Assembly (NCBI GenBank): GCA_026708285.1
Contig: JAPOVF010000311.1
Coordinates: 1-38,250 of the forward strand
DNA from: Acidobacteriota bacterium
GTDB lineage: Bacteria; Acidobacteriota; Thermoanaerobaculia; Multivoradales; Multivoraceae
Direction: 5' to 3'
Length of the DNA: 38,250 bases
Below are positions 7,108-26,870 of this stretch, piece after piece; the first letter of the stretch is position 1, and the number at the start of each line of letters is the position of its first letter. The position numbers were made by a program, and so were the translations under genes. The notes below the pieces were generated by a model. It did no database searches. It was not told the origin of the DNA and was given only the letters and a program-made list of their open reading frames with translations.

Positions 7108-7245
7108 AGCTCCACCTCCATGAGTGTCCGACCCGGAGATGGCAAGGGGCCTGGCCCTCTTCAACGGCCGGCTCTGCCCTCGTCTTCGACATCACCTTGC
7201 GCGATGATGCTCGTTGGGCAACCGGCCGTCACTCCTCGGGGCGGC

Positions 7246-9467: not shown

Positions 9468-12001
9468 AGGCGGCTTCCTCGGCTCTTTTCGCGGCGCTGC
9501 TCGTCCTTCCCGGCACGGTTGCCGCCCGTTCGCTCGAGGCCGACGTCGCGCGTCTCCTGGAAGTCTCTTGTCTTCGCTGCCACGACGTCGAGACCGAGAC
9601 GCCGCTCGATCTGGAGAACCTCGGCTACGACCTCGACGATCGAGGGATCTTCCGCAAGTGGGTGCGGGTCTTCGAGCGTCTCGAGGCGGGCGAGATGCCT
9701 CCTCCCGGGACGCGGCGCCCCCCGAAACCAGTCGTCGACGCGGCGCTCGGGGCGCTGGCGAGAGATCTGGAGACGGCGGACCTGGCGGCTCGAGCCGCCG
9801 GACAGACGCCGCCGCGCCGTTTGACCGGGCTCGAGTACGAGTACACCGTAGAGGACCTGCTCCTGATTGAGGAGAACCTGGCCCGCCTGCTGCCGGCTGA
9901 GAGCGCATCCGCCGGGTTCGACACGCTGGCGACGGAGCAGGGGATCTCGCCGCTTCACCTGCGCAGCTACCTGGAAGCGGCCGACCGTGCGCTCGATGCG
10001 GCGATCCGGCTGGGAGAGCGTCCGGCGAGCGCGGCGCGCCTGATCGACTATCCGAGCAACCCAGCTTCGTACCTCATGGTCCGCCAGAGCGTCAGCAAGA
10101 AGCTCGACGACGCCGTCGCGATGTTCGTCGATGAAGACCACCACAACACCAGCGGGTCCTTCTCGGCCACGAATCTGAGGAGCGACCGCCACGGCTTCCA
10201 CGTCGCGCATTCGGGTCTGTACAGGGTCAGCGTCGACGCCTATCCCTACCAGGCGTCGACGCCGGTGACGCTCCTTCTCGTTCGTGCCAACCCGAACGGC
10301 GACAGGACGTTGCTCGGTGCCTTTGACTTGCTGAACGGGGAGTCGGGCACGTTCGAAGCCACGACCTTCCTCCACCCGACCGACTACGTCTTTCCCGAAG
10401 TGGCCGACCTCGACTGGCACACGGACGTCGAAGGCTTCTACGCCCCCATCGAAGACTGGTCGGCAGAGGCCCAGGTCGTGGCTGCGGGGAAGGGCCTGGG
10501 CCGGCGGCTGCTCAACAACCGGGTCTATCACCCGATCTTCTACCACCCCACCGAGATCCTCGTGGATGGGGCCGCGACCTACAAGGGCGAGGGCGTGGCG
10601 GTCAGGACACTCGCCATCGAGGGACCGCTTCTCGATGGGTGGCCGCCGCCGTCGACGCGCCGGCTCTTCGACGGCATCGAGTTCGACGCCGCCGGCGAGC
10701 TGAAGCTCACGAAGGATCCGTACGAGCACGTCGTGGACGTCGTCTCGCACCTCGTGCCGCTGGCGTTTCGACGGCCGGCCGAAGCGGGTGAGGTGAAGGC
10801 GTTCGCAAGCCTGGCCAGGCCTGCGATCGCCGCCGGACGGGAGTTCGTCGACGCCGTCCGGGTTCCGCTGCGCGCTGTCCTGAGCGCGCCCCAGTTTCTC
10901 TACCACGACGATCGGCCGGGCGAGCTGGACGACTTCGCGCTGGCGACCCGACTCTCGTACTTTCTGTGGAAGAGCCTGCCGGACGAGGAGCTCTTCGCGG
11001 CGGCACGGGAAGGCGCGTTGTCGGAGCCGGAGGTGATGGCCCGGCACGTCGAGAGGATGCTCGACGACGGGAAGGCGCAGCGCTTCATTGGGGACTTCGT
11101 CGGCCAGTGGCTGCGGCTCTACGAGATCGAGTTCACGAGTCCCGACGAGAGGCTCTATCCCGAGTACGACGACCTGCTCCATCACGCGCTCCAGGAGGAA
11201 ACCAGGCTCTTCTTCACCGAGCTCGTGAAGAGCGACCTCGGCGTCCGGAACCTGATCGACTCCGACTTCACCTTTCTCAACCGCCGCCTGGCGGAGCACT
11301 ACGGCATCCCCGGGGTGGAGGGGCAGCACATGCGCAAGGTTTCGCTGCCCGACGACAGTGTGCGCGGCGGCGTCCTGACGCAGGCCAGCGTGCTCAAGGT
11401 CACCGCCAACGGCACGACGACCTCGCCGGTCTTTCGCGGCAGTTTCGTCCTCTCGAACCTGCTCGGCCGGCCGCCGAACCCGCCGCCGGCGAACGCCGGC
11501 TCGGTCGAGCCCGACATCCGGGGCGCCACGACGATCCGCGAGATCCTCGCCAAACACCGCCGGGATCCGACTTGCAACGTCTGTCACCGCGCGATCGACC
11601 CGCCGGGATTCGCCCTGGAGGCCTTCGACCCGACCGGCGGCTTCCGGACGCGCTACCGCTCCAGCGGCGAGGGCGACACGCCGACGGGGACCCTCTACGG
11701 TCGCCCCATCCTCGAGTACAAGGACGGGCCGCCCGTGGATGCGGCCGGCGTCACTCCGGAGGGCAGGTCCTTCTCGGGCATCGCCGAGTACAAGCGACTC
11801 CTGCTCGCGGAGGAGGAGGATCAGGTGGCGCGCCACTTCATCTCGCAGCTCGTCGTCTATGCAACCGGCGCCGAGATCGGCTTCGCCGACCGCGACGAGC
11901 TATCGCGGCTCGTCGCGCAGAGCCGCGAGGGCGGCTACGGCGTGCGCACGATCATCCACAATGTCACCCAGAGCCCACTCTTCAGGGAGCGGCAACGATG
12001 A
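9464..12001 (+). CDS. DUF1592/DUF1588/DUF1585-type dihaem cytochrome-like protein (planctomycete-type), exported
   Basis: 845 aa from ATG 9464 (ATGA overlap). Haem motifs CLRCH and CNVCH; EAGEMPPPGTRRP; LSYFLWKSLPDEELF; DFTFLNRRLAEHYGI; VLTQASVLKVTANGTTTSPVFRG; CHRAIDPPGFALEAFDPTG. Confidence 0.92.
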   Translation: MKAASSALFAALLVLPGTVAARSLEADVARLLEVSCLRCHDVETETPLDLENLGYDLDDRGIFRKWVRVFERLEAGEMPPPGTRRPPKPVVDAALGALARDLETADLAARAAGQTPPRRLTGLEYEYTVEDLLLIEENLARLLPAESASAGFDTLATEQGISPLHLRSYLEAADRALDAAIRLGERPASAARLIDYPSNPASYLMVRQSVSKKLDDAVAMFVDEDHHNTSGSFSATNLRSDRHGFHVAHSGLYRVSVDAYPYQASTPVTLLLVRANPNGDRTLLGAFDLLNGESGTFEATTFLHPTDYVFPEVADLDWHTDVEGFYAPIEDWSAEAQVVAAGKGLGRRLLNNRVYHPIFYHPTEILVDGAATYKGEGVAVRTLAIEGPLLDGWPPPSTRRLFDGIEFDAAGELKLTKDPYEHVVDVVSHLVPLAFRRPAEAGEVKAFASLARPAIAAGREFVDAVRVPLRAVLSAPQFLYHDDRPGELDDFALATRLSYFLWKSLPDEELFAAAREGALSEPEVMARHVERMLDDGKAQRFIGDFVGQWLRLYEIEFTSPDERLYPEYDDLLHHALQEETRLFFTELVKSDLGVRNLIDSDFTFLNRRLAEHYGIPGVEGQHMRKVSLPDDSVRGGVLTQASVLKVTANGTTTSPVFRGSFVLSNLLGRPPNPPPANAGSVEPDIRGATTIREILAKHRRDPTCNVCHRAIDPPGFALEAFDPTGGFRTRYRSSGEGDTPTGTLYGRPILEYKDGPPVDAAGVTPEGRSFSGIAEYKRLLLAEEEDQVARHFISQLVVYATGAEIGFADRDELSRLVAQSREGGYGVRTIIHNVTQSPLFRERQR

Positions 12002-13281
12002 ACCAACCCCTCGACCGACGCACCTTCCTTCGGACTTCCGGGGTCGCCCTGGCCCTGCCCCTCCTCGAAGCGATGAGCCCGGCCCTGGCCCGAGCAGCGA
12101 TCCCGGCGCCCCGGCGGATGGTGACCGTATGCAACGCACTCGGCCTGCACCCGCCATCGCTCTTTCCCGCCACACCGGGCCGGGACTACGAGACGACCGA
12201 GTACCTGGACCTGCTTCGGGACCACCGGCGCGACTACACCCTGTTCTCGGGACTCTCGCACCACGACCAGAACGGCCGCCAGGCCCACAGCAGCGAGGTC
12301 TCCTGGCTGACCGCCGCCCGCCACCCGGAGCTCGCCGGCTTTCGCAACACGATCTCGGTCGATCAGTTTGCCGCCGGTGAGCTCGGCTACGTCACCCGCT
12401 TTCCCTCGCTCGTGCTGGGTACCGACACGACGGTTCAGAGGAGCGCCAAGGGCACGCAGAGCCAGTCGTTCACGAGTCGCGGGGTCATGGTGCCTTCAGA
12501 GACGAGTCCCGCCAATCTCTTCGCCCGGATGTTCCTCGCCGGGGATGCCGACGAGGTCGAGCGGCAGAAGCGGGATCTCGGCGACGGACGCAGCATCCTC
12601 GACGGCCTGAACTCGCAGAGAAAGATGCTCGACCGGCGCGCCAGCGAGGTCGACCGGGGTCGACTGGACTCGTACTTCGAGGCCGTGCGCGCGGCCGAGA
12701 AGGGCATCACCGAGGCCCGGGCCTGGCTCGACCGGCCCAAGCCGCGGGTGGACCGGGAGCCCCCCGTCGACGTCCGGGAACGCCGCGACCTCATTGGCCG
12801 CGTCCAGTTGCTGATGGACCTCATCCCGCTGATCCTGCAGACCGACTCGACCCGCGTCGTCGCCGTGATGATCCAGGAGCTCCGGGAAGTGCCGAAGATC
12901 CCGGGGGTTTCGGGCACGCACCACAACCTCTCGCACCACGGCCAGGACCCGGACAAGATCGTGCAACTGAGGAAGGTCGAGACGGAGATCGTCAGGTGCT
13001 TCGGCAGCCTTCTCGAGCAGCTCAAGGGATGCAGCGAGGGAGACGGCACGCTGCTGGATCAGACCGCGGTCCTCTTCGGCAGCAACCTCGGCAACGGGAA
13101 CTCCCACGACACCCGGAACCTGCCGATCTTCCTCGCCGGCGGCGGCTTCGACCACGGCCGCTACGTCGCTTACGACAGGAACGACAACGCGCCGCTCTCC
13201 AACCTCTACGTCACGATGCTGCAGCACATGGACCTGGAGGCCGCGTCGTTCGGCCAGAGCACCGGTGCCTTGAGCTGGTAG
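11998..13281 (+). CDS. DUF1552 family protein
   Basis: 427 aa from ATG 11998 (ATGA overlap). DRRTFLRTSGVALALPLLEAMSPALARA leader; LFSGLSHHDQNGRQAHSSEVSWLTAARHP; GVSGTHHNLSHHGQDPDKI; GSNLGNGNSHDTRNLPIFLAGGGF. Confidence 0.92.
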   Translation: MNQPLDRRTFLRTSGVALALPLLEAMSPALARAAIPAPRRMVTVCNALGLHPPSLFPATPGRDYETTEYLDLLRDHRRDYTLFSGLSHHDQNGRQAHSSEVSWLTAARHPELAGFRNTISVDQFAAGELGYVTRFPSLVLGTDTTVQRSAKGTQSQSFTSRGVMVPSETSPANLFARMFLAGDADEVERQKRDLGDGRSILDGLNSQRKMLDRRASEVDRGRLDSYFEAVRAAEKGITEARAWLDRPKPRVDREPPVDVRERRDLIGRVQLLMDLIPLILQTDSTRVVAVMIQELREVPKIPGVSGTHHNLSHHGQDPDKIVQLRKVETEIVRCFGSLLEQLKGCSEGDGTLLDQTAVLFGSNLGNGNSHDTRNLPIFLAGGGFDHGRYVAYDRNDNAPLSNLYVTMLQHMDLEAASFGQSTGALSW

Positions 13282-13404: not shown

Positions 13405-16400
13405 CTACCGCCTTTCCGCCCACTCCCTCTCCAGCTGCCGCGCCCCGCGCATCGTCATTCCCATCGAGTAGTTGCCTTCGTGGCAGGCGTACTCGTAGAT
13501 GCGCTCGTCGGTGTGCAGCCACGGGAACGAACCGCCCCAGGTCGCCTCGTAGTCGGGATCGTCGACGCTGAACTCGTAGAACAGGCTGCCGTCGTCCTGC
13601 GGAGTGAAGCGTTCGACGATGTGGAGTCCCTCGTGCGGTACCCCTGAGGGACTTCGGGCGTTCTTGCGTCGCTCGTTCGCGTCCCTTGCCACGCCTCGCC
13701 GGCGGAAGTTCGTCGTGTCGACGACCAGGGTGTCGCCCTCCCACCGGCCGATCGATTCGCCGGCGTAGGAGAGCACTTCTTTCGGCGGGTGCTCCGAGCC
13801 GAGGCGGACGATGCGTGCCTCGTGCATCAGTTCCGCCAGGATGACGACATGGGTCGTGGTCTGGGTGATGCGGTAGTAGGCGCCGTAGCCCCTTCGCAGG
13901 GTCGGGATGGTCGCCCGATCGGAGTAGATGCAGCGCTCCCAGAGGCCGATCAGCTCCGGGTCGTCGAAGATCCGGTGCTCGCCGTTCGTCGCCGGGATGA
14001 CGCGGCCTCGGATGCCGGTGACTTCCTCCGCCCGCAGCCACCAGGCGCCGTCGGGATTCGGAGGGCCCATGCGATCGACGATCGTGAATGCCGGCCGCCG
14101 CTTCCTTCCCGCCTCGGTCACGGGCGGCATGCGGCCGTTCGGTGGGTCGGTGAGGACGGAGTTCCGGTGCCTGCCGTCGACGGTGAAGACGATCGTGCCC
14201 ATGTCGAGAAGCGAGAGGGCGTTGGCGCCCGTGACCCGGCCGCCGGCGTAGCCGCCATCCGGCGGCGGAGGACGATCGGGGTCACTTGGGAGGCCCTGCT
14301 GGGCGGACCTCGCGGCCGCGGACTCCTCGATTCTCCTGGCGTCATCGGCGCTCATGTAGGGGTCGTCGCCGTATCTCGGATGGCGTTCGATGGGCGTCAG
14401 CGTGTTGATGGTGTAAGTGCCTGAGAGATCGGGCTCGCCGCCCGGCATCCGCGGAATGTCGTTCTCCGCGGGCGGCAGGGCGAAGGCCACGAGCTGAGCC
14501 GTCTCCGGGCCGCTGCGCGCGGTTCTCGAAACCACCTTGCCGCCGGCGGGCACGACGATGTACTGGCGGCCCTGGTGCAGGTAGGTCATCGGTACACCGT
14601 GCAGGGTGGCCTCCGTCTCCACCTCCGCCAGGAGCTTGCCGGTGACCTTGTCGTAGGCCTGGAGGTAGCTGCCCCTGGCGGCGCGAGCGTCCCAGCTCGG
14701 CCAGTTCGGCACGTAGGTGATCAGCAGGGTCCTGGTGATCAGAAGTCCGCCCTCGCGGTTGCCGCTCGAGGGGCGGCTGCCTAGAGGGCCGAGATCGAGA
14801 TGCCGGATGGCGGGGTGGTCGGTCGGTCCCTCGCCGAACGGCGCCATCCAGGCGTGGTCGCCGGTGTTCAGGTCGATGGCCGTGATCCGCTGGTACGGAG
14901 GCTTGAGGAGCGGCAGTCCCTGGGGGCTTCCGACACGACCGCCGCGGCTGACCCATCTCCACTCGCTGCGTGCCGGGTCCGGCGGCGCGACCGCCACCCC
15001 GGTCGGCTGCGTTCGCGACTGAACGTAGAGGATGCCGGTCAACGGATCGAGCGAGGCGCCGGGATGGTTCGCTCCACCTGCCATCCCCGGCACCGCGAGC
15101 GTCGCCGTCTTCCCTCCCTCGCCCGCGACGATCGGGGGCGTGAACATCGGTCCCAGGAGGAACTCGTCGGCGATCTCGAGCGCCTCCTCTCGCAGTTCCG
15201 GCGTGAAGTCGATCAGATCGTCGATCGTCACGCCCTGGAGATCGAAGGCCGCCGGCCTGGTCGGAAAGGGCTGAGTCGGTGCCGTCCACTCCCCGGGCAC
15301 CGTGGTCTGCGGCACCGGGCGTTCCTCGATCGGCCAGATCGGCTCGCCTGTAACCCGGTCGAAGACGTAGGTGAAGGCCGTCTTGGACACCTGGGCGACG
15401 ATCTTCCGCAACCGGCCGTCGATCACGACGTCTGCGAGAACTGGGGCTGAGGCGATGTCCCAGTCCCAGATGCCGTGATGAACGGCCTGGAAGTGCCAGA
15501 CGCGCTCACCGGTTTCGGCGTCGAGGCAGAGCAGGCTCTCGGCGTAGACGTTCGCGCCGGGCCGGTGGCCGCCCCAGAGATTGCCGGTCGGCGTCGTGGT
15601 GGGGATGTAGACGTAGCCGAGCTCCTCGTCGCCGGCCATCGCTCCCCAGACGTTGGCGCCGCCGACCCACTTCCAGGAGTCGTTGTGCCACGTCTCGGTG
15701 AACTCCTCGCCCTCCCGCGGAATCGTGTGAAACCGCCACTTCGGCTCACCGGTACGGACGTCGTAGGCCCGCACGTGGCCGGGCGGAAGCCCCTGCTTCG
15801 TCGCGGGCGCGTCGGCGATTCGCGAGCCCACGATGAAGGTGTCGCGAATCACGATCCCGGGCGAGCCGGCGCTGATGTCGCGCTGGAAGACCTCCTCGCG
15901 GCCCAGCCGGTCATCCGACAGATCGACGACGCCGTCTTCTCCGAAGCCGGGGTCAGGGCGTCCGGTGGCGAGGTCCAGCGAGATCAGTTGCTTGCCGCTG
16001 GTGATGAAGATGATGCGCTCGACCTCGCCGTCGGTCCAGTACTCGAGGCCTCGGGGAGTGGCGCCGTAGGCTTGCGGGAACTCGTAGCTCTTCGGGTCGT
16101 AGAGCCAGAGTTCCTCACCGGTCGCGGCGTCCAGGGCGGCGATCTGCCAGAGGCTGGTCGCCATGTAGACCCGGCCGCCGATCATCAGCGCCGAGCCCCG
16201 GAAGGTGCCCGGCTCCTCCCTCAGGTCGTGATCGGCCGACTTCCAGCGCCAGGCCACCTCCAGTTGCTCGAAGTTCGACGCATCGATCTGGTCGAGGGGC
16301 GAGTAGCGGGTAAAGGCGTGGTCCCGGCCGTGGTGCGGCCACTCGGCGTTCTCCTCGCCGGACTCGGCGAGGGCGCCGGTTGCCATCGACGCGGCTGCCA

Positions 16401-16461
16401 GCAGCGCCAGCGCAAGGCAAGGCCGCCAGATCGTGCGACGCCGGTGGACGTTCCCGTTCAC
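13405..16461 (-). CDS. PQQ-dependent dehydrogenase fused to a C-terminal 'GEPDLSG...CHEGNY' domain
   Basis: 1018 aa from GTG 16461 (GTGA overlap with sulfatase stop). EWPHHGRDHAFTRYSPLDQIDASNFEQLEVAWRWKSAD; HHGIWDWDIASAPVLADV; then AQLVAFALPPAENDIPRMPGGEPDLSGTY ... MHEARIVRL ... GRWEGDTLVVDTTNF ... IYEYACHEGNYSMGMTMRGAR. Upstream part of the 1256-aa ORF is off-frame sulfatase sequence. Confidence 0.88.
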   Translation of the reverse strand: MNGNVHRRRTIWRPCLALALLAAASMATGALAESGEENAEWPHHGRDHAFTRYSPLDQIDASNFEQLEVAWRWKSADHDLREEPGTFRGSALMIGGRVYMATSLWQIAALDAATGEELWLYDPKSYEFPQAYGATPRGLEYWTDGEVERIIFITSGKQLISLDLATGRPDPGFGEDGVVDLSDDRLGREEVFQRDISAGSPGIVIRDTFIVGSRIADAPATKQGLPPGHVRAYDVRTGEPKWRFHTIPREGEEFTETWHNDSWKWVGGANVWGAMAGDEELGYVYIPTTTPTGNLWGGHRPGANVYAESLLCLDAETGERVWHFQAVHHGIWDWDIASAPVLADVVIDGRLRKIVAQVSKTAFTYVFDRVTGEPIWPIEERPVPQTTVPGEWTAPTQPFPTRPAAFDLQGVTIDDLIDFTPELREEALEIADEFLLGPMFTPPIVAGEGGKTATLAVPGMAGGANHPGASLDPLTGILYVQSRTQPTGVAVAPPDPARSEWRWVSRGGRVGSPQGLPLLKPPYQRITAIDLNTGDHAWMAPFGEGPTDHPAIRHLDLGPLGSRPSSGNREGGLLITRTLLITYVPNWPSWDARAARGSYLQAYDKVTGKLLAEVETEATLHGVPMTYLHQGRQYIVVPAGGKVVSRTARSGPETAQLVAFALPPAENDIPRMPGGEPDLSGTYTINTLTPIERHPRYGDDPYMSADDARRIEESAAARSAQQGLPSDPDRPPPPDGGYAGGRVTGANALSLLDMGTIVFTVDGRHRNSVLTDPPNGRMPPVTEAGRKRRPAFTIVDRMGPPNPDGAWWLRAEEVTGIRGRVIPATNGEHRIFDDPELIGLWERCIYSDRATIPTLRRGYGAYYRITQTTTHVVILAELMHEARIVRLGSEHPPKEVLSYAGESIGRWEGDTLVVDTTNFRRRGVARDANERRKNARSPSGVPHEGLHIVERFTPQDDGSLFYEFSVDDPDYEATWGGSFPWLHTDERIYEYACHEGNYSMGMTMRGARQLEREWAERR

Positions 16462-18647
16462 TGGGCCCGCTGCAAAGCTGCTTCGGTGAGGATTCGCAAC
16501 TGGTCGACGCCGCTGGCGCCCGCGGCCAGGTCGATGAGGATCGTCGTTCCGCCGGCGAGGATCTCCCAGCCGCCGGCGTCCGTCTCGTCGCCCAGGGTGC
16601 CGCGATCGGCCGGGGCGCCGAAGTCGGGGTTGGCGAAGGCGAGGTAGTCGCTGGCGGCGAGGCTCTCCGCACTCGCGGCGACACCGAGGATGGGATCGTC
16701 GAACACGATCTCGACGCCGGTGAGATCGGACGCGGCGGTAGGGGCGAAATGCAGCAGGTAACTGTGGACGACGGTGCCCGCGGGTACGGTCGCGCCGGGC
16801 GGCGGGTTGCCGCCGTCGTAGGCGGCGGGGGCGCCGCCGCTTTCGACAACGAGGTCCTCGCCGAGGGTGGCGAACTGGCGCTCGACGACGAGTTCGGGAC
16901 GATCTGCTGAGGTCCGACGAGCGGCCGACAGGTCGCCGGGAACGGTCTCGTCGCCGACGTCGCCGAGAAGGTCGACGCCGCCGGCGGCGGCGATGCGCGT
17001 GTCGTAGTCGGCGCCCTCGCGGCTGGCCGCCGAGTCCACCTCGTACCAGGTCGTGATCTCGTCCAGCAGCGAGGTGAAGACCTCCTGGATCTCCGGCGGC
17101 CTCGAGTCGACATCGGCGCTGGTAGCGACCGGCGTCTGTTCGCGCGGGTCTTCGAGCAGGTCGAAGAGTTCCCACTCCCGGCCGCTGGTCACCGAGATCA
17201 GCTTGTAGCGGTCGTCGAGGATGGAACGCCCGCCGCCTACCCTCATCAGGCCCCGGCCACCGCGGCCCCGGCCGGCGCTGTCGCAGTCCTCGGGCTCGCC
17301 GGCGGCGCGTTCAGGAACGGGGTCGTCGCAGTCGTCGAAACGGAGGCGGCCCAGGCGCGGCGCCGAGCGATCGCCGAAGAGGACTTCGGACATCGACTCG
17401 CCGTCGAGCGGCCGCGAGTCGGGCAGGTCGACGTCCCAGATGTCGAGGAGCGTCGGCAGGTAGTCGCTGGTGATCATCGGGGTGGACGTCTCCCCGGGAG
17501 CGATCCGTCCCGGCCACTCGACGATGCCCGGTACCCGGACCCCGCCCTCCCAGATGGAGCCCTTGAATCCGCGCAGGCCGGCCTTGGCCTCGTCGCGGTC
17601 GTCGAGCCTCACGGACCCCGAAAGACCGTTGTCGGAGGTGAAGGCCACCAGCGTGTCGTCTTCGATGCCGAGCGTTCGCAAGTGGGCGCGCAGACGGCCG
17701 ATCTCCCTGTCCATCGCCGTGATGCCGGAGTAGTAGGCCTTCTCGTAGTCGTTCATTTCCGCCTGCTCTTCGGAGGAGTAGAACTCGTCGAGAGTCGCCT
17801 GGTCGAGGCGATGGGGGCTGTGCGGCGGATGGAACCAGACGACGGCAAAGAAGGGGCGGTCGGCCGCAACGGCATCGTCGATGAACCGCGTCGTTTCCCG
17901 GACCAGGATCGCGGAGGCGTCGCCGGCGAGCGTGGGGGAGTCGATGTCGATGTGCTGCTCGTGGCCGGTCCAGTAGTGCGCCCCGATGTGGTTGCCTTCG
18001 CTCGGGAGGGGGCCCGCGGGGTCGATGCGCATTGGCTCGAAGGTCGGCAGCGCCTGCGGGGACGCCCAGGCGCGCTCGTAGCCGTGGTGCCAAGGCGCGG
18101 AGTAGAAGTCGCCTCCGCTCCGGCCGAAGCAACGGCCGCCGCAACGCGCGAGGTCGTCCGCGTCGGGTTCGGGTGTCCGGTTCAGGTTGCCGAGGTGCCA
18201 CTTGCCGAAGTGTCCGGTCATGTAGCCCTGCGTCTGGGCCAGTTCGGCGATCGTCAGTTCCAGGTTGCGGAGACCGTCGTTGTAGGCCATGTCGACGTGG
18301 TTGCGGCGCGGAGAGCGGCCGGTGACGAAGGACGACCGGGTCGGACTGCAGTTCGAACCGTGCGAGTACATGCGGTGAAACTGGAGGCCGGCCGCCGCCA
18401 TCTCGCGCAGCTCGGGCGTCTTGACCTCGCTGTGGCCGGGAAAGACGTCGCCGGGGGCGAGTTGCTGGGGGTACTCGACGTCGCCCCAGCCCTGGTCGTC
18501 GCTCATCATCAGGATGATGTTCGGCCGCGATGGAATCGACGACGATCCGGCCTCCTCGCCCGAGGGAGCGGCGCAACCGCAGGCCGCGAGGCCGAGGACG
18601 AGCGCGCCCGGCCGTTGGGATAGGGAGCGTGCGACGTTCCTGATCAT
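16458..18647 (-). CDS. Type I sulfatase (formylglycine-dependent), probable lipoprotein, with extra C-terminal domain
   Basis: 729 aa; lipobox-like LGLAACGC; PNIILMMSDDQGWGDVEYP; FGly motif CSPTR in HGSNCSPTRSSFVTGRSPRR; TGHFGKWHLGN; FTSDNGLSG. Confidence 0.93.
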   Translation of the reverse strand: MIRNVARSLSQRPGALVLGLAACGCAAPSGEEAGSSSIPSRPNIILMMSDDQGWGDVEYPQQLAPGDVFPGHSEVKTPELREMAAAGLQFHRMYSHGSNCSPTRSSFVTGRSPRRNHVDMAYNDGLRNLELTIAELAQTQGYMTGHFGKWHLGNLNRTPEPDADDLARCGGRCFGRSGGDFYSAPWHHGYERAWASPQALPTFEPMRIDPAGPLPSEGNHIGAHYWTGHEQHIDIDSPTLAGDASAILVRETTRFIDDAVAADRPFFAVVWFHPPHSPHRLDQATLDEFYSSEEQAEMNDYEKAYYSGITAMDREIGRLRAHLRTLGIEDDTLVAFTSDNGLSGSVRLDDRDEAKAGLRGFKGSIWEGGVRVPGIVEWPGRIAPGETSTPMITSDYLPTLLDIWDVDLPDSRPLDGESMSEVLFGDRSAPRLGRLRFDDCDDPVPERAAGEPEDCDSAGRGRGGRGLMRVGGGRSILDDRYKLISVTSGREWELFDLLEDPREQTPVATSADVDSRPPEIQEVFTSLLDEITTWYEVDSAASREGADYDTRIAAAGGVDLLGDVGDETVPGDLSAARRTSADRPELVVERQFATLGEDLVVESGGAPAAYDGGNPPPGATVPAGTVVHSYLLHFAPTAASDLTGVEIVFDDPILGVAASAESLAASDYLAFANPDFGAPADRGTLGDETDAGGWEILAGGTTILIDLAAGASGVDQLRILTEAALQRAQ

Positions 18648-18681
18648 CTCGTGGACCTCCTCATCCCGCCGAGCGTGGTCG

Positions 18682-20676
18682 TCAGTCCTCCCGCGGCAGC
18701 GCGAAAGCCACCAGTTCCGCTGTCGCCGCCTGGACGTTCGCGTTTCTGCCCACGGCCCTGCCGCCCGGCCTGCCGCCTGCCGGCACCACGATGTACTGGC
18801 GGCCCTCGTGCCGGTAGGTGATCGGCACGCCGTGCAGCGCCGTGTCGGTCTCGACCTGCGCCAGCACCTTGCCGGTGGCCTTGTCGTAGGCGGTGAGGTA
18901 GCTGGCGGTCGCCGTCGGCGCGTCCCAGCTCTCCCGCTTGGGCGAGTGGGTGATCAGGAGCGTCCGGGTGACGAGAAGCCCGCCTTCGCGGGTTCCGCTT
19001 GAAGGGCGGCTGCCCAGAGGGCCGAGGTCGAGATGGCTGATCGCGGGGTGATCCGTTGGGCCTTCTCCCAGCGGCACCTGCCAGGCGTGCTCGCCGGTCT
19101 TCAGATCGATCGCCGTGATGCGCCGGTAGGGTGGTTTCGTCAGGGGCAACCCCTGGGGGATCTTGAGTCCTCCCGCTCCTCCCGTCGACTTCTTCACGTA
19201 GCGGAACTCGCTGCGGGCGGGGTCCGGCTTCGCCAGTCCCCAGGCGCCGAGCTGGGTGGTCGACTGGACGTAGACGATCCCGGTCAGGGGATCGAACGAG
19301 GCGCCGGGATGATTGGCCCCGCCGCCTGGGCCGGGCGAGACGATCGTGCCGAGCTTGCCTCCTTCGCCGGCGACGATGGAGGGCGTGAAGATCGGTCCGG
19401 TGACAAACGACTCGAGGACCTCGAGCGCCTCCCGGCGCAGCTCCGGCGTGAAGTCGACCAGATCGTCGACGGTCAGGCCCTGAAGATCGAATGCTGGCGG
19501 TTTGGTCGGAAACGGCTGGGTCGGCGAGAGTCGCTCGCCGGGCACCGTGGACGGGGGAACCGGCCGCTCCTCGATCGGCCACAGCGGCTCGCCGGTGATC
19601 CGATCGAAGACGTAGATGAAGGCGGTCTTCGACGCCATGGCCACGGCCTTGCGCAGCCGGCCTTCGACGACCACGTCGACCAGGTTCGGGGCCGAGGCGT
19701 TGTCGTAGTCCCAGATGCCGTGATGCACGGTCTGGAAGTGCCAGATGCGCTCGCCCGTCTCCGCGTCGGCGCAAACCAGGCTTTCGCCGAACACGTTGTC
19801 GCCGTGGCGGTCGCCGCCGTAGTAGTCGCTCGACGGTGTCGACGTAGCGAAGTAGACGTAGCCGAGCTCCTCGTCGGCGGCGAGCGGCGCCCACACGTTC
19901 GTGTTGCCCATCCACTTCCAGGAGTCGTTCTCCCAGGTCTCGGTGAAGTCGTCGCCTTCCTGCGGGATCGTGTGGAAGCGCCACTTCTGCTTGCCGGTGC
20001 GCACGTCGTAGGCGCGCACGTGGCCCGGCGGGATGCCCGTCTTCTTCGACGGCACGTCGAAGATCCGCGAGCCGACGATGTACGTGTCGCCGACGACGAT
20101 CCCGGGCGAGCCGGCGCTGATGTCGCGCAGCCGGATCCCGGGGCGTCCGAGGTCGTCGAGCGCCATGTGGACGAAGCCCTCCTCGCCGAAGTCGGGATCG
20201 GGTTGCCCGGTCGCAAGGTCGATCGAGATCAGCAGCTTTCCGGAGGTGGCGAACAGGATGCGCTCCTCCTCGCCGTCGGTCCAGTACTCGATTCCCCGGG
20301 GACCCGAGTACGCGGCCCTGGGCGCCTTGTACGCTTCGGAGTCGAACACCCAGAGCTCTTCGCCGGTGGCCGCATCGAGCGCCGCGAGCTGCCACAGCGT
20401 GGTCATCATGTAGACCCGGCCGCCGATCATGAGCGCCGAGCCCGAGAAGGCGCCCGGCACCTCCCGCACGCGGTGGTCGGCGGACTTCCAGCGCCAGGCC
20501 ACCTCGAGCCGGGCGAAGTTCTCGCCGTCGATGTCCGCTAGCGGCGAGTAGCGGCTGAAGGCGTGGTCGCGGCCGTGATGCTGCCACTCGACGTCGGGAG
20601 CGCCGGACTCGGCGAAGGCGGCGGGGGCTGACAATGCGGCCGCCACTGCCGCCAGTGCCGCGTATCCAGCCCTCAT
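18682..20676 (-). CDS. PQQ-dependent dehydrogenase, exported (paralogue of the 13405..16461 N-terminal part)
   Basis: 664 aa from ATG 20676 (ATGA overlap); signal peptide; EWQHHGRDHAFSRYSPLADIDGENFARLEVAWRWKSADH; HHGIWDYDNASAPNLVDV; ends AELVAFALPRED. Confidence 0.93.
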   Translation of the reverse strand: MRAGYAALAAVAAALSAPAAFAESGAPDVEWQHHGRDHAFSRYSPLADIDGENFARLEVAWRWKSADHRVREVPGAFSGSALMIGGRVYMMTTLWQLAALDAATGEELWVFDSEAYKAPRAAYSGPRGIEYWTDGEEERILFATSGKLLISIDLATGQPDPDFGEEGFVHMALDDLGRPGIRLRDISAGSPGIVVGDTYIVGSRIFDVPSKKTGIPPGHVRAYDVRTGKQKWRFHTIPQEGDDFTETWENDSWKWMGNTNVWAPLAADEELGYVYFATSTPSSDYYGGDRHGDNVFGESLVCADAETGERIWHFQTVHHGIWDYDNASAPNLVDVVVEGRLRKAVAMASKTAFIYVFDRITGEPLWPIEERPVPPSTVPGERLSPTQPFPTKPPAFDLQGLTVDDLVDFTPELRREALEVLESFVTGPIFTPSIVAGEGGKLGTIVSPGPGGGANHPGASFDPLTGIVYVQSTTQLGAWGLAKPDPARSEFRYVKKSTGGAGGLKIPQGLPLTKPPYRRITAIDLKTGEHAWQVPLGEGPTDHPAISHLDLGPLGSRPSSGTREGGLLVTRTLLITHSPKRESWDAPTATASYLTAYDKATGKVLAQVETDTALHGVPITYRHEGRQYIVVPAGGRPGGRAVGRNANVQAATAELVAFALPRED

Positions 20677-21131
20677 CGGTTCGGTGGCTCCGACGGGTCG
20701 GCCGAATCTCTCGGCGCGCCGGTGCCGGAAGAGCCCAGGAACAGTCTCTCCCCGTTGGTATAGGTCACGGTGCGTCCCGCGCACTTGTTCGAGCGGTCCT
20801 TGGCCTGGAAGCCATCGACGACGATCTCGGTTCCCGGCAGCAGCGAATTCTTGGTGAAGCCCCGGCGAAACAGGCTCGGGGGACTGCCGCTCTCGACCAT
20901 CCAGATCTCGGTCGAGCCATCTTCCTTCACGACCTCCATGTGGATCCACGCATGCGGATTGATCCACTCCATCCGGGTCACCTTGCCGGTGAGCTTGACC
21001 GGGCGGTCGGCATCGAACTCGGCGGCGAAGGCGTGGTGCGCCATTGCCGGTGCGGCGCCCACGGCGAGAGTGAAAGCGACTGCGGCCATGAGGACCTTGG
21101 TGGGCACGATGCTGGTCTCCTTCCCGGTCAT
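20673..21131 (-). CDS. DUF6152 family protein, exported
   Basis: 152 aa from ATG 21131 (ATGA overlap); signal peptide ending AAPAMA then HHAFAAEFDADRPVKLTGKVTRMEWINPHAWIHMEV, characteristic of the HH(S/A)FAAE(Y/F)D ... NPH family. Confidence 0.85.
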   Translation of the reverse strand: MTGKETSIVPTKVLMAAVAFTLAVGAAPAMAHHAFAAEFDADRPVKLTGKVTRMEWINPHAWIHMEVVKEDGSTEIWMVESGSPPSLFRRGFTKNSLLPGTEIVVDGFQAKDRSNKCAGRTVTYTNGERLFLGSSGTGAPRDSADPSEPPNR

Positions 21132-21973
21132 TCGGGATCTCCGCCCTTCCAGACGCCCTTGCTCAGGTGGCGGTACATCAGCTCCTCCGCGAACACGACG
21201 CACTTGAAGTCGAGTAGCTGCATGTTCTCCTCGATGCGTCGATAGAGCGGAAAGCTCACCTTCCACGGGCGGGTGTAGGTCTTCGGGTCGGTGATCGTCG
21301 CCTCGTAGTGGAGATGGTCCGGCCCGGTCGCCGTGTAGCGCTCGAGGACGTGGATCTCCTCGCTGTGGTGATTGCCGGAGCTGTCGAGCCAGGTGTCGGG
21401 TACCTGGGCAGAGACATCGATCACGAGGGTCTCTCCCTCCCAGTGCCCGCGGGAGTGCCCCATCCAGTTGTCGCCGGGACTCTCGAAGTCGGGTCGGTTC
21501 ATGTAGACGATCCGGCTGGCGCTGGCGAACTCGTAGGCGAAGATGACGTTCTCGGGGGTCTGGATGATCTGGAACGGGAAGGGCATGTAGTTGGCGCGGG
21601 GGATGCCGGGCATGAAGCACTTGATCGCCGGGTCCAGCTCCCACCATCGCGCGAGGTTCTCCTGCTGCTTCGCCCTCGCTGCCGGGGTGTAGGGGATCTC
21701 GCCGCCTTCGACGATGCCCAGGCCCCCCGGCACGGCGCCGAGCGCACCGAGTTCGACGATCGGGCCGCTGCGGGCGGCGTGGGCCTCGATGTCCCAGTGC
21801 GCCGTCGTCAGGGCCTGCCAGATGCCGTTCAGATCCGGCTCGCCATCACTGGTGCGCGCGGCACGGTAGTCCTGTGCCTGGACCGGCGTCGCGGCCGTCA
21901 CTGCAACGGCGGCAGCGACCGCGGCGGAAAGCCCTGCGCGCCGCATTCGGATTCGCACGTTTCCGCCTCTCAT
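21128..21973 (-). CDS. Exported protein of the 'GEPDL.G.W' family (divergent member, lacks CHEGNY)
   Basis: 281 aa from ATG 21973 (ATGA overlap); signal peptide; DGEPDLNGIWQ; SRGHWEGETLVIDVS; IHVLERYTATGPDHLHYEATITDPKTYTRPWKVSFPLYRR. Confidence 0.82.
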   Translation of the reverse strand: MRGGNVRIRMRRAGLSAAVAAAVAVTAATPVQAQDYRAARTSDGEPDLNGIWQALTTAHWDIEAHAARSGPIVELGALGAVPGGLGIVEGGEIPYTPAARAKQQENLARWWELDPAIKCFMPGIPRANYMPFPFQIIQTPENVIFAYEFASASRIVYMNRPDFESPGDNWMGHSRGHWEGETLVIDVSAQVPDTWLDSSGNHHSEEIHVLERYTATGPDHLHYEATITDPKTYTRPWKVSFPLYRRIEENMQLLDFKCVVFAEELMYRHLSKGVWKGGDPE

Positions 21974-22839
21974 TCGGGGTCCGCCGCGGCCTCCTGCTCG
22001 CTGACGCGAGCGCCGCGCAAGATGTTCGCCATGTTGTAGTTGCCCTCGTGGCAGGCGAACTCGAAGAGCGGCTCGTTGCGCTTGCCCATCGGCATCCTCA
22101 CCGTCCATGGCCTGACCCAGATCGGTGGATCGTCGATCGTCACCTCGTAGAGCATCACCTCGGGGCCGACCCGGGTGAAGCGCTCGGTCACCACCAGCTC
22201 TTCCGAGTTGAGGGAGTGGAACCAGGTCTGCGGGGTCCCTCGCTGGTGGGTGCCGGCGTACCCCTTGGGCAGGTAGTTCGCCGTCTCGACCACCAGGGAG
22301 TCGCTTTCCCAGCGGCCGCGCGAGTCTCCGAGCCATAGCCCGATCCGGCGATCGGGGTGGGGCGAACCGTCGAGAGGGATGACGCGGGCCTCGTGATACC
22401 ACTCCATGACGATGACCACATGGTCCCTGTTCTGGACGAACTTGTAGTACTGGTTGAAGTTCGCCCGCACGGGCACGCCCAGGGTCACGCAGCGTTCGCC
22501 CAGGGAGCGGTCCTTCCAGGTGTCGGCCGGATGCTCCTCCAGGTACTGCTGGAGGGCGTCCCAGTCCTTCTGCGCCTGCTCGGTCAGAGCCGGAATCCCG
22601 CCTTCGGGCGGGTCGATGACGAGGTGGGACAGTCTGGCGCCGCCGCGGGTGCCGCCGATCTCCACCCACACTCCCCGCAGATCGGGGTGGCCGTCCACGG
22701 TACGGGGTACGGTCCAGCCCGCTGGCGTCTCGGGCACCTCCACGGGCCCGCGAGCCCTTCGCTGAGCCGCAGCGAGGCCAGGCAGCAGCAGTACCAACAC
22801 GATTCCGGCCGCCAGGCGTCGCGATGACGATCTGCGCAT
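21970..22839 (-). CDS. Exported protein of the 'GEPDL.G.W ... CHEGNY' family
   Basis: 289 aa from ATG 22839 preceded by AGGAGG; signal peptide; DGHPDLRGVWVEIGG; WYHEARVIPLDG; GRWESDSLVVETANY; LFEFACHEGNYNMANILRGAR. Confidence 0.84.
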   Translation of the reverse strand: MRRSSSRRLAAGIVLVLLLPGLAAAQRRARGPVEVPETPAGWTVPRTVDGHPDLRGVWVEIGGTRGGARLSHLVIDPPEGGIPALTEQAQKDWDALQQYLEEHPADTWKDRSLGERCVTLGVPVRANFNQYYKFVQNRDHVVIVMEWYHEARVIPLDGSPHPDRRIGLWLGDSRGRWESDSLVVETANYLPKGYAGTHQRGTPQTWFHSLNSEELVVTERFTRVGPEVMLYEVTIDDPPIWVRPWTVRMPMGKRNEPLFEFACHEGNYNMANILRGARVSEQEAAADPE

Positions 22840-23026: not shown

Positions 23027-25384
23027 TCAGACCTCCGGCACCAACGGCCATACGAGCGGAAGAACCGTCAGAACCACCATCATCACCAGGATCAACAACG
23101 GGAAGCCGGCCTTCATGAAGTCAACGAACCGGTATCGTCCGAACCCCATCACCAACAGATTGACCGGATGACCCACCGGACTCATGAAGGCGCAGGAACT
23201 CGCCACCGCCACCGTCATCATGAGAGCCTGGGCCGACAGCCCTTCGGTGGTGGCCGTGCTAAGGGCAATGGGCGACATGAGTACCGCGACCGCCGCCGTC
23301 GGCATGACTTGGGCCGATAGGGCTGTGATCAGAAAGAGCCCCGCCGTCACTGCCAGCGGCCCGAAGTCCGCAAGGGATCCCAACACCGTTTTGGCCACCA
23401 GCGCGGCGGTTCCGGACTCCTGCATCGCGAGTCCCAAGCTGAGCATCCCCGCGATCAGGATGACCGCCTTCAGCTCGATGCACCGATAGGCCTCCTCAAT
23501 CTTCAGGCAGCCCGTCAGCACCATCAGGACGGCTCCGATTGGCGCCGCGACAAACACAGGCAAAAGACCCGAGATCACCGAAGTCAGGACGCCCGCCATG
23601 ATCAGGGCGCTGACGGGAGCCTTCCGGCTTCGCATCGCTTCTCCGGCTCCTTCAGTCATGACGAGAAAGTCCGGGTGTTCCGCAAGTAGCGCGAGCTTGT
23701 TCCTGTCGCCATAGAGCAAAAGGGCATCACCGGGGAGCAGTTCCGTCTTCCGGAGCCCACTGCGGTAGATCTCTCCGTTCCGCCATATCGCGAGGATCGA
23801 GACACCGTAGTTCTGCCGGAACTTGAGCTCCTCGACCGTCCTTCCCGCGAATGTCGTGCGGGGAGACAACGACGCCTCCGCCAGGCCGACGGTTTCGGAC
23901 TCCAGTCGACTCAAATCCAGGGGGTGATCGTCGCCCACCTCCAGATCCTGGAGCGCCTCCAGGATCCTGAGATCCTCGAACTGTCCCCGGAGCAGAAGAA
24001 CGTCCCCTCCTTCGAGTTTGGTATCCGGATCGGGAACGAGAAACTCGTCATCGGTCCGCAGAATCCCCACCACCGTCAGGCCGAATGCATCGGCCAACTG
24101 GGTCTGTGCGAGTAGCTGACCGGACAGTAGTGAGTCTTCCGAGATTCTGACGCTTTGAATCCTGCGCTCCATGTGGTAACGAGAGACCAGCTCTTCCGCC
24201 GGCACGGAACGAACCGCTCCCAGGCTGCCGTCCTCCGCCAGCGCGGCAAGTCGTCCGCTCTCCATCGCAATCAGCAGACGATCCTCTGAAGCAAGAGTCA
24301 TCTCCCGCAGTCCCGTACGATGCACGGTGGCGCCGCGCAGGATGGCAAGCACATGCAGGCGCCGGGTCCGGCGCAGGTTCGCTTTGCGAACCGTCTTGCC
24401 GATCAGTGAGGAATCTCTCGCCAACTCCAGTTCCGCTACCCCGATAGAGGCCTTTGCGATGCGCTCCAGAGTCCTCTCTCTCGACTCGATCTCCAGGTGC
24501 TTCCATGCGCGGAGGGCCTCGAACCTCTCCAGGGTTCCTTCGACGACCATCTCGTCTCCCTCCCTCAGAACGAAGTCGTTCCTGGGAGCGAGGATCAGTT
24601 GTCCGCTTCGTCGCACCGCTACGACGTTCAGACCCAGCGCATGGCCCAACCGGCCCTGGCGAAGTGTCTTGCCAGCCAGTGCGGAATGTCTGGGCGCTCT
24701 CAGGATTCCGATGAGGCCACCCAGGTCGTAGAGTCCCCCCAGATCCACCGGGTCGGACTCCTCTTTCGGAGCGTGGTCCGGCAGCAGTCGCCGGCCCAGG
24801 AACGTCATGTAGACGACCCCTACGGCAAGCGCCGTCAACCCGACCGGCGTGAACGAGAACATCTGAAACGGCTCGAACTCGGCATCCCGCAACGCCCCGT
24901 TCACCAGGATGTTCGGCGCCGTTCCGATCAAGGTCGTCATTCCGCCGAGCAGGGATCCGAAGGCCAGGGGCATGAGCAGTTTGGAGGGCGCGGCCCCGGT
25001 GCGGCGGGCCATATCCAGGACCACCGGAAGCATGAGCGCGGTGATTCCAATGTCGTTCATGATCCCCGACAGGAGGCCCACCGTGGGCATCATCACCGCG
25101 ATGAGACGGCCGACTCCGTGCCCCGACGCGGCCAAGACCCGTTGACCGATGAAGTGGGCCACTCCGGTCCGCATCAGCCCGCCGCTCAGGACCAGGACGG
25201 AAGCGATCGTGATGACCGCTTCGTTGGCGAAACCCATGATCGCCTGCTCGCCCTCGAGGATGTTCGTCACCACGAGTGCGAGCATCACCATCAGGGCGAC
25301 CAGATCCACCCGGACCCATTCGGTCACGAACAGGACCACCGCTACCGCGAGAATTCCCCCGACTACGAGAACCTCGAAGTTCAT
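23027..25384 (-). CDS. SLC13/DASS family permease with four RCK_C (TrkA-C)-like domains
   Basis: 785 aa; two hydrophobic blocks (MNFEVLVVGGILAVAVVLFVTEWVRVDLVALMVMLAL and the 600-785 region) around four repeats with LAGKTLRQ / LIGKTVRKANL / LSGQLLAQTQL / FAGRTVEELKF and ...GD.(ML)(VL) motifs. Confidence 0.9.
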   Translation of the reverse strand: MNFEVLVVGGILAVAVVLFVTEWVRVDLVALMVMLALVVTNILEGEQAIMGFANEAVITIASVLVLSGGLMRTGVAHFIGQRVLAASGHGVGRLIAVMMPTVGLLSGIMNDIGITALMLPVVLDMARRTGAAPSKLLMPLAFGSLLGGMTTLIGTAPNILVNGALRDAEFEPFQMFSFTPVGLTALAVGVVYMTFLGRRLLPDHAPKEESDPVDLGGLYDLGGLIGILRAPRHSALAGKTLRQGRLGHALGLNVVAVRRSGQLILAPRNDFVLREGDEMVVEGTLERFEALRAWKHLEIESRERTLERIAKASIGVAELELARDSSLIGKTVRKANLRRTRRLHVLAILRGATVHRTGLREMTLASEDRLLIAMESGRLAALAEDGSLGAVRSVPAEELVSRYHMERRIQSVRISEDSLLSGQLLAQTQLADAFGLTVVGILRTDDEFLVPDPDTKLEGGDVLLLRGQFEDLRILEALQDLEVGDDHPLDLSRLESETVGLAEASLSPRTTFAGRTVEELKFRQNYGVSILAIWRNGEIYRSGLRKTELLPGDALLLYGDRNKLALLAEHPDFLVMTEGAGEAMRSRKAPVSALIMAGVLTSVISGLLPVFVAAPIGAVLMVLTGCLKIEEAYRCIELKAVILIAGMLSLGLAMQESGTAALVAKTVLGSLADFGPLAVTAGLFLITALSAQVMPTAAVAVLMSPIALSTATTEGLSAQALMMTVAVASSCAFMSPVGHPVNLLVMGFGRYRFVDFMKAGFPLLILVMMVVLTVLPLVWPLVPEV

Positions 25385-25385
25385 C

Positions 25386-25409
25386 GGGAGTGCGCCCTTG
25401 GTGCAGCCG
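25386..25409. repeat. 24-bp direct repeat, copy 2 (immediately upstream of the permease start codon)
   Basis: GGGAGTGCGCCCTTGGTGCAGCCG, identical to 22927-22950. Confidence 0.95.
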
Positions 25410-25436
25410 ACAGGAGCGTGACTCGCACGCCGGCGA

Positions 25437-26870
25437 TCAGGTCTCCTGCTGCGACGTCAGCTCGATCTGCTTGTAGCCCCCTGCCCGCCGGAAGTGGAGG
25501 ATCAGGTAGAGGAAGCCGAGCGCCATGAACACGGGTATCGCCGCGGTGATCCGCAGGGCGGTCTGGCCGCCGTGGAAGGACGCGTCGCGCACGGCCTGCT
25601 CGTCCGGCGGCAGGGTGATGCTGAAGTCCTTCGCCTTCTCCATGACCGGACCGGCCTTCGTGCCGTCGAGGCCCTGGACGGGGGCGAAGAACAGGAAGCT
25701 GTTCGTGCCCTGGGCCTTGTACTCCTCGTACACGGCGGGGGCGTTGGCCTGCAGGTCCTGCGAGGCGTGCCGGTCCTGGAGGTAGCCGATGCCGGGGCCG
25801 CCCAGCAGTCCCGCCGAGAGCATGCCGACGCCGCCGACGGCGCCGAGCGTCAGGGCGCCGCCGCGCGGGAAGCGCTCCGAGACGACGGCCAGCATCGTCG
25901 GCCAGAAGAAGGCCTTGCCGGCGCCGTAGATCGTGGCGGCGATCATGACGGTGACGGCGCCGGCCAGCGAACCGAGCGAGTAGAGGCCGATGGCGGCGAC
26001 GACGGCGCTGACGAACAGCAGGCCGAGCGGGTTGATCCGGTGAACGATCGGTCCGGCGAAGAAGCGCAGCACGAACATCAGGATGGACGTGTAGAGCAGG
26101 ATGAACAGCCCCTTGCCGCCCAGCACGGTGTCCATGATGTTGACGATCCAACTGTCGGTTCCGAGTTCGACGTAGCCGATGCAGACGTGGAGCACCAGCA
26201 GGAAGAGCAGCATGGGCGCCGCGAACTCCTTGACCATGTCGAGGAACTTGACGCCGGCGGCGGCCGCCTCGGACGTGGGGAATCTCTCCTTGACCATCAT
26301 CAGGACGTAGATGAGGGTCGGAACGAGGTAGAGCGCGAGGACGATCTCCCAGCGCACGCGGCCGATCAGGCCGATGCCCAGGAGAGAGCCGCAGATCAGG
26401 CCGGCGGGCCAGCCGGCGTGCAGGATGTTCAGGTAGTGGGTCTTCTCCTTGTGGTAGAGCGTCGCAACCAGCGGGTTGATGACCGCTTCGCAGATGCCGT
26501 TCGCGACGGCGAAGATGAAGACGCCCCAGAACAGGCAGAAGTAGGCCCCGGCGCGGGCGAAGTCCGGGTTCGTTTCGATCGATCCGTTGTAGACGAAAGT
26601 CGCCGCAACGGCCACGACGACCGACAGCACATGCAGGACGCCCGCGCCCAGCAGGAACGGTTTGTAGCCGTAGCGGTCGAGGAAGGCGCTGGCCACGAGG
26701 ATGACGAGTCCGAAGCCGACGAAGCCGCCGCCGGTGATCTGTCCGAGTTCCGTCTGCGTGAAGCCGAAGGCCGTGCCCCATTCCAGGAGGAGCCCGCCGC
26801 GAACGGCGGTTCCGACTCCGGCAACCAGGATGGTGAGGAAGCTCGCGATCAGTAGTTTCGTCTTGTTCAT
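25437..26870 (-). CDS. MFS transporter (probable sugar/nucleoside-type)
   Basis: 477 aa, multiple TM segments, MNKTKLLIASFLTILVAGVGTAVRGGLLLEWGTAFGFTQTELGQITGGGFVGFGLVILVASAFLDRYGYKP (MFS motif A-like). Confidence 0.88.
   Translation of the reverse strand: MNKTKLLIASFLTILVAGVGTAVRGGLLLEWGTAFGFTQTELGQITGGGFVGFGLVILVASAFLDRYGYKPFLLGAGVLHVLSVVVAVAATFVYNGSIETNPDFARAGAYFCLFWGVFIFAVANGICEAVINPLVATLYHKEKTHYLNILHAGWPAGLICGSLLGIGLIGRVRWEIVLALYLVPTLIYVLMMVKERFPTSEAAAAGVKFLDMVKEFAAPMLLFLLVLHVCIGYVELGTDSWIVNIMDTVLGGKGLFILLYTSILMFVLRFFAGPIVHRINPLGLLFVSAVVAAIGLYSLGSLAGAVTVMIAATIYGAGKAFFWPTMLAVVSERFPRGGALTLGAVGGVGMLSAGLLGGPGIGYLQDRHASQDLQANAPAVYEEYKAQGTNSFLFFAPVQGLDGTKAGPVMEKAKDFSITLPPDEQAVRDASFHGGQTALRITAAIPVFMALGFLYLILHFRRAGGYKQIELTSQQET

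Follow-up and report, generated by a model that had tools for sequence, protein, structure and literature searches.

What might a bacterium do with a sulfatase, two quinoproteins and members of two anonymous protein families that are all exported from one tightly packed set of genes? This question is raised by the window analysed here, a stretch of 38,250 nucleotides (contig JAPOVF010000311.1 of assembly GCA_026708285.1) from an Acidobacteriota bacterium of the family Multivoraceae, in which six minus-strand genes, g1 to g6, span positions 13405-22839. A preliminary description had read them as an operon whose products desulfate a substrate and then oxidise the exposed hydroxyl. Our results support an exported, translationally coupled and conserved operon, in which a quinoprotein-sulfatase pair was once duplicated in tandem. 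The operon is built from known enzyme families, and the larger finding is the steady pairing of its two anonymous families, DUF6152 and one that we call CHEGNY.

When the reading frames were read again, the six genes, the four 4-bp overlaps and the gap of about 34 bp were all as described. In order of transcription, the products are an exported CHEGNY-family protein (g1, 21970-22839, 289 amino acids (aa)), a divergent CHEGNY protein ending in FKC...EELMY (g2, 21128-21973, 281 aa), a DUF6152 protein (g3, 20673-21131, 152 aa), a soluble Gcd-like quinoprotein of the pyrroloquinoline quinone (PQQ) dehydrogenase family (g4, 18682-20676, 664 aa), a sulfatase lipoprotein (g5, 16458-18647, 729 aa) and, from a GTG start, a quinoprotein-CHEGNY fusion (g6, 13405-16461, 1018 aa). 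The overlaps read ATGA at g1-g2, g2-g3 and g3-g4 and GTGA at g5-g6, with 34 bp between g4 and g5. Every product carries an export signal, as had been claimed: assessed by eye, g1 to g4 and g6 have cleavable-looking signal peptides and g5 has the lipobox LAAC. The fused nature of g6 is an addition to the preliminary description: its N-terminal part (g6N, 14500-16461) is a second Gcd-like quinoprotein, whose end passes through a joint at 14449-14499 into the mature N-terminus of a CHEGNY domain (13405-14448) that is homologous to g1 and g2.

The gene-neighbourhood check that had been suggested for the operon came out in its favour. Of the 19 genomes from the genus of the window, nine have the same gene order, as has one further named record, and both the order and the overlaps are conserved across ten genomes, window included, with 87-99% identity in the nine others; the g1 orthologs, about 95-96% identical, occupy the same operon position. 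The ratio of non-synonymous to synonymous substitution rates (dN/dS) lay at 0.07-0.24 throughout, for each gene as well as for the two halves of g6 (0.07-0.10 for g1), indicating purifying selection. Since the order recurs in nine more genomes and selection has acted on all the genes, the operon is not a chance arrangement. Its flanks are also conserved, with DUF1552-DUF1592 genes downstream and, in most relatives, an MFS transporter gene upstream. A scan of named genomes found the operon in the acidobacterial metagenome-assembled genomes (MAGs) SB0666, Plut_88883, RHO1, SB0675, 277c_1, CO36388 and COS3. The codes RHO and COS agree with Rhopaloeides and Coscinoderma, which figure in surveys of sponges (PMC8163846), and going by these codes, since the record titles do not say so, the genus is probably sponge-associated. 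One of these MAGs, COS3_bin_14 (G001; L053/L063/L064), holds two near-identical operon contigs, perhaps from two co-binned strains.

How the operon came to hold two quinoproteins and a single sulfatase is answered by its relatives. The quinoproteins g4 and g6N are sister paralogs, 69% identical and joined with a support of 100/100 in a tree of 26 rows (L173, L174, L176, L177, L184, L187 and L191 were disregarded as wrong-frame readings of GC-rich DNA). In one relative, G008 (L056/L061), the second quinoprotein is followed by a second, complete sulfatase that has a lipobox and a CSPTR motif of its own, and only then by the CHEGNY gene. The first and second sulfatases are 70-74% identical and are each other's sole relatives at E<=1e-60 across the 19 genus genomes; together with the sister quinoproteins this shows that a quinoprotein-sulfatase pair was duplicated. 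Second quinoprotein and CHEGNY are 51-60 bp apart in six genomes; in one they are 513 bp apart, with a remnant of the sulfatase between them, and in three the distance is 2221-2339 bp and includes a sulfatase. In three relatives, G008 among them, the downstream CHEGNY gene is separate and encodes a signal peptide of its own; in G012 and CO36388 the second quinoprotein is in frame with the second sulfatase, which has lost its lipobox; in G001 a single frame runs from quinoprotein through CHEGNY and retains, of the sulfatase, just the beginning and a scrambled tail; and in six genomes, including the window, the intervening sulfatase is fully lost and the quinoprotein reads straight into mature CHEGNY. 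As the second sulfatase still stands in this place in relatives, the fused gene of the window is the product of a later in-frame deletion, which occurred at a short GC-rich match. Both types of in-frame fusion, quinoprotein-sulfatase in two genomes and quinoprotein-CHEGNY in six, have lost only the downstream export signal, and the former tie the two activities together. The tree of the ten operons contains no starred branches, so the deletion events cannot be counted.

The claim that g5 is a formylglycine (FGly) sulfatase with a CSPTR motif was borne out. In addition to its PF00884 match (E=7e-44), the blocks NCSPTR, SDDQG (with the two-Asp start), GKWHLG, HPPHSP, TSDNG and FKGSIWEGG align with those of solved arylsulfatases, and the maturation motif and the active-site set are complete. 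The genome contains seven matches above cut-off to PF03781 (best 273 bits), a family that comprises the formylglycine-generating enzyme and other proteins. Thus g5 shares CSPTR, the two-Asp start, GKWHLG, TSDNG and KG...WEGG with the S1 sulfatases such as arylsulfatase A and steryl-sulfatase, but differs from them in being a lipoprotein, in an additional C-terminal region of about 200 aa, and in having a paralog that is fused downstream of a quinoprotein in two relatives. A search with g5 found it in none of 12 genomes from other families of the order, and around the distant g5 relatives met in the named-genome scan no CHEGNY gene was present in the surrounding DNA, up to 10 kb on each side. 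One distantly related sulfatase, found among matches that are otherwise mostly planctomycete, lies in a record titled as a Klebsiella pneumoniae MAG (L099), a label that looks doubtful.

The assignment of the quinoproteins as PQQ dehydrogenases held in part. Both g4 and g6N are PF01011 propellers (574 and 583 bits), and in an alignment with Escherichia coli Gcd they retain R266, D354, W404, D466 and K493, as do the neighbouring quinoprotein PQQ3 and most of the correctly framed paralogs; we take Asp466 and Lys493 to be catalytic, Trp404 to stack and Asp354-Asn355 to form the Mg2+ site. We rejected the idea that the Gly of HHGIWD replaces the catalytic Asp, given that the alignment places Asp466 at the retained D of WD. 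Unlike Gcd, both are soluble proteins with signal peptides and no membrane anchor, and g4 scores below the NCBIfam cut-offs of TIGR03074 (340 of 833 bits) and TIGR03075 (195 of 480 bits), so that on these profile scores g4 and g6N are PF01011 propellers outside the two curated subfamilies. Against the model for acido-empty-quinoprotein group A (TIGR04528) they reach 212 and 213 bits, below its cut-off of 650, and the literature searched contained no paper on such proteins. The part of the claim that did not hold easily concerns the cofactor. The biosynthesis gene pqqC was found in none of the 19 genus genomes, the window's own included, which weakens the reading as PQQ enzymes. Of 22 CHEGNY-bearing genomes checked, 21 lacked it too, and the remaining one was a strong positive that served as control; matches to PqqE were present but far under the cut-off. 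PQQ would therefore have to be scavenged from outside. Such scavenging is established among bacteria: E. coli imports PQQ for its own enzymes, many Gram-negative species have PQQ enzymes without making the cofactor, and the quinoprotein-bearing non-producers include some Acidobacteria with the importer PqqU (PMC12124388). It is the most likely answer to the missing pqqC. A TonB-dependent receptor with a carboxypeptidase-regulatory domain lies at 4318-7164 (minus strand), adjoining a third quinoprotein, as it also does in G008 and G012. It was considered as the PQQ importer and rejected, having no likeness to PqqU (E 0.94).

A single family, CHEGNY, unites the proteins g1 and g2 with the C-terminal third of g6, and none of these matched Pfam or NCBIfam; nor did an alignment of 20 diverse members give a convincing match in Pfam, NCBIfam or the PDB. 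Near-invariant in this alignment are two cysteines (117 and 263 of g1), Glu146, Arg152 and a W-E-G-D-T-L-V-V block, and the cysteine pair is likely to form a disulfide in the exported protein. CHEGNY genes were found in 31 of 247 acidobacterial genomes and in no other family of the order that was examined, with 38 matches in the window's own genome, 35 in the genome G014 and at least 105 in G106. The last of these is a 4.8-Mb acidobacterium, in which, at roughly one gene per kb, about 2% of the genes would belong to a family nameless in Pfam and NCBIfam; it also has around 80 quinoprotein matches. Two AlphaFold2 models, both limited by their alignments, were made. The second, built with two more divergent members (mean predicted local distance difference test (pLDDT) 54.4, predicted TM score 0.60), improved on the first, that of g1, only in the core, which was confident, its strands averaging about 60-91 by block, and its top 50 PDB fold matches were all calycins, of the fatty-acid-binding protein (FABP), retinol-binding or lipocalin-like type. 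For this model of low mean pLDDT the best matches, of retinol- or fatty-acid-binding type, had E values of 3e-4 to 4e-3 and a target TM of about 0.5, and the eight at E<=0.001 were all of the FABP or cellular retinol-binding protein type; a library of viral structures gave nothing useful. A calycin-like, ligand-binding barrel is thus a reasonable lead for CHEGNY, whose PDLxGxW start resembles the lipocalin GxW. CHEGNY differs from calycins in having no sequence relationship to them, and we know of no calycin counterpart of its conserved disulfide or of its tail.

Most of what is new here concerns the partnership of DUF6152 with CHEGNY. g3 is an ordinary member of DUF6152 (PF19649; 112 bits against a gathering cut-off of 27, E=1e-32), with a predicted mature N-terminus of His-His and an NPH motif; what is new is the steady pairing of its family with CHEGNY. 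Among 45 distinct DUF6152 proteins all would begin, once mature, with His-His, 44 have it directly after a predicted signal-peptidase-like site, 44 have an Ala before it, and 44 have NPH, 25-26 residues further on. This is the sequence pattern expected of a copper histidine brace, making a role in copper binding possible. CHEGNY was within 1.5 kb at 29 of the 30 DUF6152 loci sampled in Acidobacteriota, near all five loci in G014 (0.15 expected), and present in all 12 DUF6152-bearing genomes of a sample of 149, half of these 12 coming from one genus. A second site with a g2-type gene and DUF6152 occurs in most genus genomes. On sphingomonad plasmids (Novosphingobium, Sphingobium, Croceibacterium) the two genes adjoin as well, once with a 4-bp overlap, and a small membrane protein, DUF6644, is a frequent third neighbour in both phyla (L164 5134-6109, L197 6373-6846, L119-L122, L126, L130-L132, L145 and L155). 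In Novosphingobium humi (L164 4616-8729) the pair follows a GH39-like protein, and the gene at 4616-5122 of this locus, close to the pair, may encode a c-type cytochrome (CVACH). In the literature searched we found no paper on the pairing or on DUF6152 itself. The preliminary description had made both families partners in the pathway. DUF6152 is linked to CHEGNY, and not specifically to sulfatases or quinoproteins. The pairing turns two anonymous families into one joint, testable problem. We would tentatively suggest, while thinking it unlikely, that CHEGNY and DUF6152, often with DUF6644, constitute a periplasmic system that has not been described before, whose copper-binding DUF6152 and calycin-like CHEGNY proteins bind or convert small lipophilic molecules, sulfated ones among them, and which in Acidobacteriota has expanded to between tens and more than 100 CHEGNY paralogs per genome with varied partners, such as the quinoprotein-sulfatase pair.

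For the operon as a whole we propose, at about even chances, a coupled breakdown of a sulfated compound. The six genes would act as one translationally coupled operon in the periplasm or on the outer surface, on a sulfated compound that is plausibly host matrix, or on a sulfated lipophile. The lipoprotein g5 would desulfate it at the membrane, and g4 and g6 would oxidise the freed or a neighbouring hydroxyl with PQQ acquired outside; that one substrate is shared, and that desulfation precedes oxidation, we infer. The CHEGNY proteins, secreted, disulfide-bonded and probably calycin-like barrels, would hold or present the substrate, with DUF6152 as a small periplasmic partner whose N-terminal histidine may serve to bind copper. 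The present gene set arose by tandem duplication of the quinoprotein-sulfatase pair followed by in-frame deletions, through which the second sulfatase was lost and the quinoprotein fused to CHEGNY. For sulfatase-rich sponge symbionts, sulfated host matrix has been proposed as a food source: their arylsulfatase genes, which stand beside dehydrogenase genes, would act on sulfated matrix polysaccharides (PMC5649159). Those clusters resemble ours in that a sulfatase adjoins dehydrogenase genes; theirs come with ABC transporters, whereas here quinoproteins, CHEGNY and DUF6152 are present. The in-frame quinoprotein-sulfatase fusions point to a coupled step that handles the desulfated products.

Several observations weigh against this proposal. 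The operon is limited to nine of the 19 genus genomes; no SusC/SusD pair, glycoside hydrolase (glycosidase) or lyase, by which a polysaccharide utilisation locus is recognised, was found among the six genes with Pfam and NCBIfam; in the quinoproteins Asn355 of the Gcd Mg2+ site is replaced by Val or Ala (Asp354 being retained) and His262 is also replaced; the CHEGNY models are weak overall (mean pLDDT 44.6, with non-significant fold matches, for g1 and 54.4 for the second); and in Paracoccus DUF6152 and DUF6644 occur with no CHEGNY nearby. Moreover, the predicted co-occurrence of quinoproteins and sulfatases failed beyond the operon: in G014, with 55 sulfatases and 39 quinoproteins, four of the 39 quinoproteins had a sulfatase within 1.5 kb against 2.3 expected, and we rejected this neighbourhood as a genome-wide rule. 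The coupling of the two enzymes thus rests on the duplicated pair and its in-frame fusions, since neighbourhoods elsewhere lend no support.

A rather unlikely but credible alternative is that two co-transcribed modules, quinoprotein-sulfatase and CHEGNY-DUF6152, work independently and each on compounds of its own, the g6 fusion being a deletion accident. It would fit the many sites at which CHEGNY-DUF6152 pairs stand without either enzyme, the GC-rich match at the deletion, and the sheer abundance of both enzyme families in G014, where adjacency could be due to chance. However, a quinoprotein is close to a CHEGNY gene far more often than chance would give (within 5 kb for 14 of the 35 in G014, 3.3 expected), a quinoprotein-CHEGNY pair occupies another conserved site in ten genus genomes, quinoprotein, DUF6152 and CHEGNY stand side by side in G106, which belongs to a different family, and the fused form has been retained under purifying selection in six genomes. 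It seems quite unlikely that the quinoproteins are cofactor-free propellers with a binding or scaffold role rather than dehydrogenases: the missing pqqC, the replaced Asn355 and His262, the scores below the PQQ-dehydrogenase cut-offs and the sub-cut-off acido-empty match would all agree with this, but a scaffold needs none of the five Gcd residues that g4, g6, PQQ3 and most paralogs have kept, and PQQ import as in E. coli and other non-producers would supply the cofactor. Very improbable, finally, is an oxidation by CHEGNY and DUF6152 instead of or before the quinoproteins, with a histidine-brace copper DUF6152 acting on a CHEGNY-held ligand and the sulfatase following. The near-invariant HH and NPH at fixed spacing, the linkage across two phyla and the recurrent DUF6644, which recalls a periplasmic-membrane copper pair, speak for it; yet the copper role is putative, DUF6152 is small for an enzyme, and its conserved histidines could instead serve metal storage or folding.

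If the proposed breakdown of a sulfated compound is correct, the electrons released would need an acceptor. None of the six operon proteins contains a CXXCH motif, as had been noted, and two (CLRCH and CNVCH) are present in the product of the gene at 9464. Since DUF1592 and DUF1552 genes also flank the operon in those relatives that were checked, they may supply the acceptor. In the window they belong to a convergent plus-strand cluster at 7338-13281, which encodes the third Gcd-like quinoprotein, the dihaem DUF1592/1588/1585 protein at 9464 and a DUF1552 protein whose start resembles a twin-arginine signal. Upstream of the operon and on its strand, positions 23027-26870 encode the MFS transporter and a DASS-type anion symporter that contains TrkA-C domains; most relatives retain the MFS gene, and the DASS gene was seen in the window and G002 only.

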